Under the pieces are notes generated by a model that saw only the letters and a program-made list of their open reading frames with translations, did not search any database and was not told the DNA's origin. From Corallococcus sp. NCRR (GTDB taxonomy: Bacteria > Myxococcota > Myxococcia > Myxococcales > Myxococcaceae), in assembly GCF_026965535.1 (NCBI RefSeq), contig NZ_CP114039.1, forward strand, positions 5,704,001-5,768,000: DNA of 64,000 nt, given 5' to 3'. Positions 58,266 through 62,589 of the stretch are shown piece after piece. A program made the translations under genes and the position numbers. Numbering within the stretch: the first letter of the stretch is position 1; each line of letters starts with the position of its first letter.

Positions 58266-58309
58266 GTATCGGAATTGTGTTTCCGATGGTACTGGACAGG
58301 GGTCGTTCA

Positions 58310-59185
58310 ATGATCGTCGTGACCGGAGCAACCGGGCAGCTTGGCCGCCTCATCGTGGAGAAGCTCATCGCCCGCGTCCCCGTGGACCGGGTCGCCGTCA
58401 GCGTCCGGGACGTCCAGAAGGCCCAGGACCTGGCGGCACGGGGCGTCCGGGTGCGGAGGGGGGACTTCGCGGAGCCGGCGAGCCTCGCGCAGGCCTTCGA
58501 GGGCGCGACCCAGGTGCTGATGGTCTCGTCGAACGCGGCCGCGCACGGGGGCGATCCCCTGGCCCAGCATCGCTCCGCCATCGACGCCGCTCGGTCCGCT
58601 GGAGCGCGGCGCATCGTCTACACGAGCCACATGGGCGCGAGCCCCACGTCGGCGTTTCCTCCCATGCTCGACCACGCGGCGACGGAGCAGATGCTGGCCG
58701 GGTCCGGTCTGGCGTGGACCTCGCTTCGCAATGGGTTCTACGCGTCGAGCGCGGCGTTCCTGCTGGAGCGAGCCCTGCAAGCGGGAGTCTTCGAGGCCCC
58801 GGCGGATGGAAAGGTCTCCTGGACCACGCACGCCGACCTCGCGGAGGCGGCGGCGGTGGTCCTGACGAACGAGGGGCGGTTCGACGGGCCGACGCCGCCG
58901 CTCACGGCCTCGCAGGCACTCGACTTCGGTGAGCTGTGCGACATCGCGTCGGACCTCCTCGGACGGCCCATCCGTCGAAGCACCGTGTCGGAGGATGAGA
59001 TGCGCGCGAAGCTCGTGGCGAGCGGCATGCCCGCGCCGGTGGTCGGCATCTCGCTCGGCCTCTATCGCGCGAGCCGCGATGGCGAGTTCGCCGCCGTCGA
59101 CCCCACGCTGCGGCGGTTGCTCGAGCGTGAGCCGGTGAGCATGCGCGAGTTGCTCGCCGGGAAGCTGCTCAGGGCGCGGGGATGA
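58310..59185 (+). CDS. NmrA/QorB-like NAD(P)-binding protein
   Basis: A 291-residue Rossmann-fold protein. The cofactor motif is TGATGQLGRLIVEKL at 5-19. Sequence around VYTSHMGASP and TSLRNGFYASS fits the atypical SDR subgroup of NmrA and quinone oxidoreductase 2 (QorB), which bind NADPH and reduce quinones or sense redox state. Start ATG 58310 has an AGGGG site; the longer frame from 58277 begins before it with poor composition. Its 3' end overlaps the convergent membrane-protein gene by 17 bases. Confidence 0.87.
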   Translation: MIVVTGATGQLGRLIVEKLIARVPVDRVAVSVRDVQKAQDLAARGVRVRRGDFAEPASLAQAFEGATQVLMVSSNAAAHGGDPLAQHRSAIDAARSAGARRIVYTSHMGASPTSAFPPMLDHAATEQMLAGSGLAWTSLRNGFYASSAAFLLERALQAGVFEAPADGKVSWTTHADLAEAAAVVLTNEGRFDGPTPPLTASQALDFGELCDIASDLLGRPIRRSTVSEDEMRAKLVASGMPAPVVGISLGLYRASRDGEFAAVDPTLRRLLEREPVSMRELLAGKLLRARG

Positions 59186-60378: not shown

Positions 60379-61086
60379 CTATGCCGCGAGGGGAAGGCTG
60401 GAGGCGCCAGCCTCACGGAAGATGCGCGGGTAGACGCTCCGGGCGACGCGCGCCGAGAAGAGGATGGCCTCCTGATCCTCGGGGTCCGTCAGCTTCCCCA
60501 AAAGCTTCACCATCTCCGCCACGTGGTCTCCGTCCAGCGCCCCATGGCTGCGCAGGAACGTCACCGACTTGTGGATGTTGGGGATGGCGGACGCCGCCCG
60601 CATCCGCTCCGCCCACTGGCCTGCCCGCGTCTGCGACAGGTACTCCAGCACGTACGCGGTCCCCAGCACGGCCGTCGGTACGCCCGCGCGCGACGTGAAG
60701 AAGTTCCACCCCGTGTAGGCATCCACCGCCGGGCTCTTCGCCGCCGCCTCCACCTGCTCCTGCGACCACCCCAGGTTCTTCAGGTCGGACAGCAACCACA
60801 GGTCATGCCCCCGCTCCTCCTCGCCCTTCTGCACCAGGAGCTCCGCCAGCTCCGGATGCCGCCCCAGCTTCCTCAGCCGCAGGCCCGCTTCGCCCAGAAG
60901 CGCCGTGCTCCAGCGGGCGTAGTGGAACGTCTGGACGAGGTAGTGGATGTAGCCCTCCGCGTCGAGGGTGCCCTCCAGCATGCGGCGGGCGTCGGGCTGC
61001 GCATCCACCGCCGCCACCAGCGCTCGCGCCTCCGCGTCCAGCGCCGCCAACCAGCCCGTTCCCTGCTGCTCCGTCTGTGTTTGCAC
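60379..61086 (-). CDS. Heme-oxygenase-like (HDO-type) putative diiron enzyme
   Basis: A 235-residue all-helical protein of the iron-containing redox enzyme group (heme-oxygenase-like fold). Candidate metal ligands are visible in FHYARW, GEEERGHDLW and FLRSHGALDGDH, the spaced Glu/His/Asp pattern of HDO diiron oxidases and oxygenases such as UndA- and SznF-type domains. It follows the FeeM-like gene by 66 bases on the same strand and is probably in one operon with it, which suggests oxidation of an N-acylated product. Metal use and reaction are inference. Confidence 0.8.
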   Translation of the reverse strand: MQTQTEQQGTGWLAALDAEARALVAAVDAQPDARRMLEGTLDAEGYIHYLVQTFHYARWSTALLGEAGLRLRKLGRHPELAELLVQKGEEERGHDLWLLSDLKNLGWSQEQVEAAAKSPAVDAYTGWNFFTSRAGVPTAVLGTAYVLEYLSQTRAGQWAERMRAASAIPNIHKSVTFLRSHGALDGDHVAEMVKLLGKLTDPEDQEAILFSARVARSVYPRIFREAGASSLPLAA

Positions 61087-61152
61087 GTGCGTCTCCTGTC
61101 CGGGGCCATTCCGGGCGCCCGGTGGATGTCTGTTTTGAAGATGAACCCCAGG

Positions 61153-61965
61153 CTAGGCGGCGGAGCTCACACCGCTCTCCAACGCATGGAAGCGCGCCAG
61201 CGTCTCCGCTGGGATCTCGTCGAGCGCCATGATCAACGGCAGCGTGAACCACTGGAAATACGCGTCGTAGAGCGGCTCCGCGATGAAGCGCGCGCCCATC
61301 GTCCTGGCGAAGAGCGAGGGCGACCTGGGGACCCGCAGTCCGTCCAACAACCCCTGCTTCGCCCGCGCCCGCTCCTCCGGCGTGTAGTAGGGGGTCCGGG
61401 ACTGCGCCGCGGCCTCCCGTGGATCCGGCACCGCCACCTGGAAGCACGGGCTGCGCCATCCCCGGCTCGCCACCACCTGCCATGACAGCAGGGCGTCCTC
61501 GGGCGAATCCGTCTCCAGGTTCGCGGATGCAATCCAGTGGGTCACTCCCCGCCGCCGGCTCTCCGCGTACATGCCCGCCTGCAGCCAGGTCACGGCCTCC
61601 GAGCGCCGCCACTCCGGCAGCACGCAGAAGCGCGAGGGCTCGGCGAACACCATCCCCGGCCGGAGCAAGGCGGAGAGGTCCATCCGCTGCTCCATCTCCA
61701 GGCCCACCCGCACGCCCAGGTTCGCCGCCACCTCCGCGTTGGGCAATGCAATCCGCATCGTCGCCACCGGCTCGGCGCCGTCATGGACCAACACGTGCAC
61801 GGTGGTGTCGAGCGTGTCGATGCAGGTCATCTCCCGCCGGGACACCGCTGACTGCTCGGACAGCAATCCCATCTCTCCGCCAAAGACAGCCCAGCGGATG
61901 CGAGCCGCGTCATCCAACTCACGTTGGGTGGTGGCGACACGCCAATGCCAATGCTTGCGCCTCAT
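61153..61965 (-). CDS. GNAT/autoinducer-synthase-like acyltransferase (FeeM-like)
   Basis: A 270-residue protein. Residues 1-190 resemble the GNAT subgroup that includes N-acyl amino acid synthases (FeeM) and LuxI-type synthases: a near-N-terminal RIRWAVFGGEMGLLSEQS with the Arg-Glu pattern, then CIDTLDTTVHVLVHDG, PVATMRIALP and FCVLPEWRRSEA. An additional C-terminal part (about 195-270; MGARFIAEPLYDAYFQWFTLPL) is not typical of GNAT. The start at 61965 has a GGGAG site. With the heme-oxygenase-like gene downstream, this looks like a small pathway making a modified acyl compound, possibly a signal. Confidence 0.75.
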   Translation of the reverse strand: MRRKHWHWRVATTQRELDDAARIRWAVFGGEMGLLSEQSAVSRREMTCIDTLDTTVHVLVHDGAEPVATMRIALPNAEVAANLGVRVGLEMEQRMDLSALLRPGMVFAEPSRFCVLPEWRRSEAVTWLQAGMYAESRRRGVTHWIASANLETDSPEDALLSWQVVASRGWRSPCFQVAVPDPREAAAQSRTPYYTPEERARAKQGLLDGLRVPRSPSLFARTMGARFIAEPLYDAYFQWFTLPLIMALDEIPAETLARFHALESGVSSAA

Positions 61966-62034: not shown

Positions 62035-62589
62035 TCACTGCATGTTGGTGACGATCTGCGCCTCGCAGGTGTTGATGTCGATGTAGGAGTTGACGGCGTC
62101 GAGGGTGCAGATGGCGCCGCCGTAGGTCCCGTAATAGACCGTCGCGCTGCAGGCCCCGGCGTTGTCCGCGATGTCCACGCGCCAGATGCACGTCTTCGCG
62201 CCGGCCGGGTTCGCCGGGTCGACCGTCCAGTAGTACTGCTGGGAGAACGACGGGGCCGGCGCGGGGGCGCTGACCTGGAAGCCGCCCAGGTTGGCGGTGG
62301 GCACGGGATAGGGCGAGTACACGCCGTTGAACGTGCCGTTGATGGTCTGGAGGCCCAGGTAGATGTTGGCGCCGCTCTGGTTGGAGACGAAGAAGTTCTC
62401 CAGGGCCGGGCCAATGGCCGCGCCGCCCTTCACCTGCGGAACTTCGAACGCGCCCTCGCGAACGCTGACGTACTCGTTGCGCTGGGAGAGGAAGTCGGGG
62501 AACCCGAGATCGGCCGGAGCGGCAAAGGCAACCGACGGCGCGAGGGACAACAGGGAGGCGGCCAGGAAACGCTTCACGTTCCTCGTCAT
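62035..62589 (-). CDS. Secreted protein of unknown function
   Basis: A 184-residue exported protein (signal peptide ending SVAFA). The mature part is beta-rich with three Cys (KTCIWRVD, AGACSATVYYG, ICTLDAVN, INTCEAQ gives four in all), probably two disulfides. The start has an AGGAG site 7 bases upstream. It begins an apparent run of three same-strand genes with the FeeM-like and heme-oxygenase-like genes, 69 bases before the former, though co-transcription is not proven. No known domain. Confidence 0.72.
   Translation of the reverse strand: MTRNVKRFLAASLLSLAPSVAFAAPADLGFPDFLSQRNEYVSVREGAFEVPQVKGGAAIGPALENFFVSNQSGANIYLGLQTINGTFNGVYSPYPVPTANLGGFQVSAPAPAPSFSQQYYWTVDPANPAGAKTCIWRVDIADNAGACSATVYYGTYGGAICTLDAVNSYIDINTCEAQIVTNMQ

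Follow-up and report, generated by a model that had tools for sequence, protein, structure and literature searches.

An acyltransferase and a putative diiron enzyme inherited together in Myxococcaceae, usually beside a convergent LuxR-type regulator: a possible signalling module

The closest described signalling systems are of the LuxI/LuxR type, represented in myxobacteria by the synthases AgpI of Archangium gephyra and VitI of Vitiosangium; the portion of that report available to us describes M. xanthus as having no obvious LuxR receptor (PMC7862692). A survey of signalling in the Myxococcaceae, as far as its accessible sections go, calls quorum signalling absent from most myxobacteria and reports homologues of CqsA, a single AI-I synthase and, except in C. 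llansteffanensis, LuxR homologues in every genome (PMC7694542). On the side of the oxidative enzymes, the accessible parts of the literature on heme-oxygenase-like diiron enzymes (HDOs) give E-H-E-H-(D/E)-H as the ligand motif (PMC11363339) and 3H/3C as the metal set, with a fatty acid as the substrate of UndA (PMC13108848), and describe HDOs as appearing specialised on amino-acid substrates (PMC13185094). A heme-oxygenase-like protein in signal synthesis has a precedent in valdiazen of Burkholderia, where HamA belongs to a cluster making a diffusible, self-regulating signal, according to the sections seen of PMC5878181.

We analysed a window of 64,000 nucleotides (G000:C1:5704001-5768000) lying within one 9.79-Mb contig. 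The initial annotation of this window had proposed that a FeeM-like acyltransferase and an HDO, encoded one after the other, make and oxidise an N-acyl compound, possibly a signal or an antibiotic-like molecule.

The gene pair and its two enzymes

Both genes are present, on the same strand and in the order annotated, with the acyltransferase first and the HDO downstream of it (Table 1). Pfam scanning of five neighbouring genes identified an NmrA-like reductase, a TetR regulator and an amino-acid permease, the other two having no family above cut-off. A second pair is present in the window genome, at G000:C1:5405428, with an acyltransferase and an HDO that are 54% and 55% identical, respectively, to the window copies.

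Table 1. Coordinates of the features at the window locus (position 1 is the first nucleotide of the window)
Feature	Position	Strand	Description
Acyltransferase gene	61153-61965	minus	270 aa, ATG start; GNAT fold, LuxI/FeeM/OlsB superfamily (PF21926 and PF13444 above cut-off)
Spacer	61087-61152	minus	66 nt, terminating in the AGGAGACG ribosome-binding site of the HDO gene
HDO gene	60379-61086	minus	235 aa, GTG start behind AGGAGACG; putative diiron enzyme (PF14518)
Gene in the place of the regulator	59169 to about 60341		

The spacer DNA is alike across paralogous modules although their proteins are only about half identical, the window copy being short and divergent. Spacer length ranges from 63 to 97 nt in 34 spacers (that of the window and those of 33 loci among L120-L157), which carry a CTTCACCTTCAAC-like tract and a GC-rich stretch ahead of CAGGAGACGT; the latter 10-mer occurs in 29 of 35 HDO upstream stretches. 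Two RNA pairs were predicted in the conserved spacer, neither with compensatory changes, and thus no fold is supported.

The acyltransferase matches Pfam FeeM (PF21926: E 2.7e-8, 34.2 bits against a cut-off of 27) over profile positions 15-123 of 158 only, and Acetyltransf_5 (PF13444: E 2.9e-8, 34.8 bits against 22.4). Its top NCBIfam match is the ornithine N-alpha-acyltransferase model NF052555, with E 7.5e-10 and 38.7 bits against a cut-off of 320; NF052554 (E 1.6e-6, 28.1 bits against 350) and the exosortase-associated acyltransferase model (E 1.2e-6) are likewise sub-threshold. The label FeeM-like is therefore appropriate for the superfamily, the PF21926 and PF13444 cut-offs being modestly exceeded, and is not appropriate for the family, as the best NCBIfam match is to an ornithine N-acyltransferase and falls far below threshold. 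Two more specific classes were ruled out, namely OlsB, as the cut-offs of NF052555 and NF052554 are not reached, and the AHL synthases, as the PF00765 (Autoind_synth) profile is matched neither in the window genome at E 1e-3 nor in the hmmscan of the acyltransferase with E up to 1. Among 20 sequences R24, D50, R71, E109 and R112 are invariant and F28 is at least 90% conserved. These residues form a core R..F..D..R..ExxR that is probably shared with LuxI-type proteins. All six coincide with residues of a PF00765 protein of a relative (L164), one Trp and one Asp of which have no counterpart; the profile comparison with that protein is weak (5.8% probability). Judged by its sequence, the acyltransferase seems to form a subfamily of its own within the LuxI/FeeM/OlsB superfamily.

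The HDO matches Pfam Haem_oxygenas_2 (PF14518) with E 6.5e-17 and 62.3 bits (cut-off 28.9). Residues E91, H94, E148, H181, D185 and H188, a full 3-His/3-carboxylate set, are invariant in alignments of 22 and of 29 sequences, and fall on the Glu/His/Glu/His/Asp/His of UndA in a profile alignment; as all six ligands are kept, an inactive HDO was ruled out. Its AlphaFold2 model (pLDDT 88.8, pTM 0.86) has as closest solved fold 3dde, a structure titled as of unknown function (Foldseek E 5e-6, query-normalised TM 0.76), with CADD at 0.74-0.75 and UndA at 0.68-0.69 on the same scale. A TenA homologue is among the closest solved folds, and matches to the model extend to true heme oxygenases and TenA proteins. 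We thus describe the HDO as a putative diiron enzyme, with a predicted heme-oxygenase-like fold and a complete ligand set. Loss of acyltransferase or metal-ligand residues, which the initial annotation had named as an argument against its own proposal, is not seen in the alignment of either protein.

Co-inheritance and a convergent regulator

Among 145 genomes of the order, 61 have the acyltransferase and 61 the HDO (E up to 1e-8); the two sets are identical and consist of Myxococcaceae only. A profile search for the acyltransferase at E 1e-6, covering 195 genomes of the phylum, again gave 61 genomes and nothing outside this family, and plasmid searches yielded two weak matches at E 0.01, or none when a divergent family member was used as the query. 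We considered as full-length the 95 of 107 acyltransferase matches exceeding 700 nt, leaving out 12 of at most 700 nt, and kept 98 of 106 HDO matches, those below 550 nt or 33% identity being set aside. An HDO lies downstream of 86 of these 95 acyltransferases, on the same strand and within 6 kb. The gap between match ends is 69-160 nt in 84 of the 86 pairs, the other two HDO genes lying behind an insertion of 4.1-4.7 kb. Of the 61 genomes, 59 have at least one complete pair; full copies number one to three in each genome. Chance adjacency was rejected on these counts (the same 61 of 145 genomes, 86 of 95 paired), and the co-occurrence on which the initial annotation had made its proposal depend is very strong.

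A scan of a named genome collection identified 40 loci, from Corallococcus, Myxococcus (including M. xanthus AM003, L132), Pyxidicoccus, Archangium, Hyalangium, one Myxococcaceae MAG and three records labelled Comamonas. In the 31 of these loci with all three proteins (the regulator described below included) near full length, genetic distances of the acyltransferase correlate with those of the HDO (r 0.947; best of 1000 label permutations 0.29) and of the regulator (r 0.882; best of 1000 permutations 0.25), both correlations being inflated by shared species history. A pathway linkage of acyltransferase and HDO is well supported.

Some loci depart from the common arrangement. At L034 and L035 (G100 and G107) acyltransferase and HDO are separated by an opposite-strand gene whose protein has about 1150 aa. 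Six genomes (G098, G099, G109, G094, G076 and G078) keep both the acyltransferase and an HDO-regulator unit, on separate loci, and in G094 a degenerate HDO still lies beside the acyltransferase. The 'Comamonas sp. KCTC 72670' records carry three of these myxobacterial loci (L123, L134 and L144), and their label looks wrong.

Another gene, encoding about 360 aa and in most cases convergent with the HDO gene, recurs in 29 of 41 drawn loci; these are the window and 40 stretches of 16-19 kb, analysed with a simple gene caller and some of them picked for separated pair members. At least 70 of the 86 pairs have such a convergent regulator gene no more than 4 kb from the end of the HDO, 69 of them within 0.9 kb; this is a lower bound, as the regulator table holds the best 119 places of a longer list and the G043 pair, with its regulator on the same strand, was scored as a miss. 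It is also found at no fewer than 9 of the 13 HDO genes counted as unpaired. At 16 of the 86 pairs, including the two most divergent (L048 and L049), no convergent regulator was found. In the named collection the regulator is present in 36 of 40 loci, once truncated (L136), and an HDO match in 35, intact in 34, degenerate in L136 and behind an insertion in L123. Four of the five loci lacking the HDO keep the regulator (L129, L143, L144 and L158, the last with a truncated acyltransferase), and the fifth, L159, lacks both and has a broken acyltransferase. At E 1e-40 the regulator family is found in 62 of 96 Myxococcaceae genomes, which are the 61 with the module plus G045, a count that holds at this threshold, weaker relatives in other genomes being possible.

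All 28 regulators scanned have a GerE (PF00196) helix-turn-helix match. At E 1e-3, weak GAF matches were found in a few (GAF_2 in 4 and GAF_3 in 2 of the 28) and a classical autoinducer-binding Pfam domain in none. The model of the M. xanthus AM003 protein (pLDDT 85.3, pTM 0.50) has as best PDB match CviR with C6-HSL (E 3.7e-7), with SdiA, RhlR and VqsR also ranking high; bacteriophytochrome GAF modules interleave with these AHL receptors at about equal scores. Full-length superpositions are poor (query-normalised TM about 0.35, rmsd above 10), and the isolated ligand domains of CviR and VqsR give a target-normalised TM of 0.62-0.67. The predicted structure supports a GAF/PAS-type sensor as the N-terminal domain; that its ligand is an acyl compound is only suggested. 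Upstream of the three genes, no 6-mer dyad of the lux-box-like kind is common to more than 5 of 35-39 sequences. Dyad counts against the shuffle mean were 92 versus 40 for the regulator, 62 versus 47.5 for the acyltransferase and 46 versus 38 for the HDO, with related sequences counted repeatedly and shuffles preserving base composition only.

Two further gene sets were observed around these loci. In 12 of the 41 drawn loci (L041, L043, L050, L058, L060, L062, L064, L065, L067, L069, L070 and L071) the HDO gene is followed on the same strand by one for a protein of about 86-130 aa, assigned to DUF3892 from the one copy scanned (PF13031, E 2e-10). None is drawn in the window; this protein is possibly a fourth part of some modules. 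Many loci are also flanked by a block on the other strand (L032, L040, L044, L045, L050, L053, L055, L057, L059, L061, L063, L067 and L069-L071), comprising a small sigma-region-2-like protein (14 of 41 loci) and proteins of about 125 and 770 aa (15 of 41), with an M78 peptidase-like protein in seven of these blocks.

The window lineage as an exception

The 16 pairs for which no convergent regulator was found include that of the window and its counterpart in G059; beside the window pair no regulator remnant was detected at a convincing score. As the regulator is missing here, the initial annotation could not see a third gene, and its description as just a pair does not usually hold in the family, in which a LuxR-type regulator accompanies at least 70 of 86 pairs. 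Elsewhere in the window genome there are five members of the regulator family (E 1e-40), one of them, at G000:C1:5407008, adjoining the second pair. Three regulator-family genes stand in tandem at G000:C1:3982569-3986765, the acyltransferase and HDO matches of the genome all being elsewhere.

The orthologous slot of G069 (L036) contains, in order, an NmrA-type gene, a 323-aa gene, the acyltransferase, the HDO, the regulator and a 197-aa gene. The slot in the window is bounded by the same neighbours (58277-59185 and 62035-62589); between them the pair runs the other way, and another gene stands in the regulator's place (Table 1). The simplest account would be a local inversion together with loss of the regulator in the window lineage. 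The product of the window pair would then either act through the second module's regulator or be put to another use.

Possible function and comparison with described systems

From gene content, co-inheritance, conserved residues and predicted folds, we propose that the module comprises a synthase, a tailoring oxidase and a receptor for an oxidised N-acyl signal, in quorum-sensing-like or pathway-specific signalling, a reading to which we give an even chance. The GNAT-fold enzyme would acylate the amine of an amino-acid-like acceptor, with acyl-ACP or acyl-CoA as the donor; the resulting N-acyl compound would be oxidised by the HDO with O2 and its diiron centre, in a reaction such as hydroxylation, desaturation or C-C cleavage; and the product would be sensed, in most relatives, by the convergently encoded GAF-like/LuxR-HTH regulator. 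In this scheme we infer the acyl donor and acceptor, the order of the reactions, the type of oxidation and the recognition of the product by the regulator. A bolder and more tentative proposal, which we would place somewhat short of an even chance, is a widespread new class of quorum sensing among social predators of the genera Myxococcus, Corallococcus, Pyxidicoccus, Archangium and Hyalangium, leading from an N-acyl amino acid made by the LuxI-superfamily acyltransferase through an HDO-made signal chemotype to a GAF-LuxR receptor. If this were true, paralogous modules within one genome would carry separate signals.

The frequency of the convergent LuxR-type regulator favours a signal over the antibiotic-like molecule that had been offered beside it. 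In the latter case a mini-pathway would make an oxidised N-acyl compound directed against prey or competitors, and the LuxR-type protein would be an ordinary regulator sensing something else. HDOs do act in natural-product pathways, as stated in the parts seen of PMC13108848 and PMC13185094; GAF-LuxR regulators need not sense a local product, and the 16 pairs found without a convergent regulator are in keeping with this too. Yet only two enzymes recur, the recurrent neighbours that we inspected in the 41 drawn loci (rare clusters excluded) include no exporter or further tailoring enzyme, and the regulator family at E 1e-40 is nearly confined to the genomes with the pair, a tighter association than that of a generic regulator, so that we consider an antibiotic-like role unlikely. 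We also think it improbable that the pair belongs to an aminolipid pathway, in which an OlsB-like acyltransferase would form a membrane lyso-aminolipid to be hydroxylated by the HDO under the control of the regulator. The scores of 38.7 bits against 320 and 28.1 bits against 350 are far from the cut-offs, no O-acyltransferase is among the recurrent neighbours examined, and a patchy presence (61 of 96 family genomes) in one to three copies is unlike that of a core membrane lipid, even if the ornithine N-alpha-acyltransferase model NF052555 is the top NCBIfam match, with NF052554 among the others, and a C-terminal stretch is common to the acyltransferase and a Variovorax Acetyltransf_5 protein.

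Acyltransferase and HDO might finally work in separate pathways, their adjacency reflecting shared regulation only. With match ends 69-160 nt apart in 84 of the 86 pairs, the two genes are not translationally coupled, and several genomes have the acyltransferase and an HDO-regulator unit on different loci, as this would allow; but the identical presence in 61 genomes, the correlated divergence and the retention of both halves where they are separated make it very improbable. The preferred reading, of an oxidised N-acyl signal and its receptor, matters in that a synthase, an oxidase and a regulator co-inherited in 61 genomes would constitute a directly testable signalling system.

Among known acyltransferases, the FeeM synthases resemble the one described here in that it passes the PF21926 cut-off and that the core GNAT region aligns. 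They differ in that 2 of 20 genomes searched hold separate, far stronger FeeM matches (E 6e-38 and 2e-37), one of which compares weakly with our family (66% probability). With OlsB and other Acetyltransf_5 proteins it shares a domain above cut-off and, with the Variovorax protein, the stretch around 'GARF..PLYDA.F....LPL...LDEIP', whereas it remains far under the OlsB equivalog cut-offs. The HDO has the predicted fold and the complete 3H/3C motif of UndA, CADD, SznF, FlcD and MboA, none of which is described beside a LuxI/FeeM-type acyltransferase in the accessible text of the sources (PMC11363339, PMC13108848 and PMC13185094). The ham cluster (valdiazen and fragin), to which the pvf and mgo signal clusters are homologous, provides the precedent for a heme-oxygenase-like protein in signal synthesis, but its pathway involves an AurF-type N-oxygenase and a carrier-bound amino acid leading to a diazeniumdiolate, as far as the sections seen of PMC5878181 tell; no AurF-type N-oxygenase or other ham-type gene is among the five scanned neighbours of the window pair.

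HDO relatives are also found on plasmids (24 records), in all six regions examined within an operon order of 'thermostable hemolysin', AMP-binding protein, HDO and SDR. This proteobacterial plasmid operon (L114-L119) encodes a small protein in addition, and in L116 the HDO is fused to the AMP-binding protein. The HDO of this operon is clearly homologous to ours (hhalign 99.8%), and the operon differs from our module in having a ligase and an SDR. For the 'thermostable hemolysin' protein, profile comparison (four rows) detected no homology with the acyltransferase. No gene in the six regions is annotated as a LuxR-type regulator, L116 carrying a response regulator, and literature searches found no description of the operon. 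On a Variovorax plasmid (L112:1982-6970) an HDO (PF14518, E 1.9e-44) and an Acetyltransf_5 acyltransferase (PF13444, E 6.8e-32; hhalign 98% against our acyltransferase) lie within about 3 kb, together with an ORF that looks methyltransferase-like by eye and a weakly RimK-like one; this is possibly another acyltransferase-HDO pathway. The set with a LuxR-type partner was met only in Myxococcaceae, the main group surveyed.

The genome of C. llansteffanensis carries the module (L149) and is the one for which the accessible part of the Myxococcaceae survey gives no LuxR homologue (PMC7694542), so that the LuxR hits of that survey need not be our regulator family, which its search seems to have missed. 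Full-text searches, with subscription papers largely outside their coverage, found no description of the acyltransferase-HDO pair or of the module. We know of no LuxI-type signalling with a diiron-oxidase step. Compared with the LuxI/LuxR systems of myxobacteria (AgpI and VitI, as described in the portion seen of PMC7862692), the module has in common a synthase of the LuxI superfamily with several shared core residues and, adjacent in most cases, a LuxR-type HTH partner with an N-terminal domain of ligand-binding type. It differs from them in that the synthase is not a PF00765 protein, that the HDO is inserted between synthase and regulator, that the regulator has no classical autoinducer-binding Pfam domain, and that the order is convergent, the window copy being without a regulator altogether. 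The module may be an undescribed form of synthase-receptor signalling with an added oxidase.
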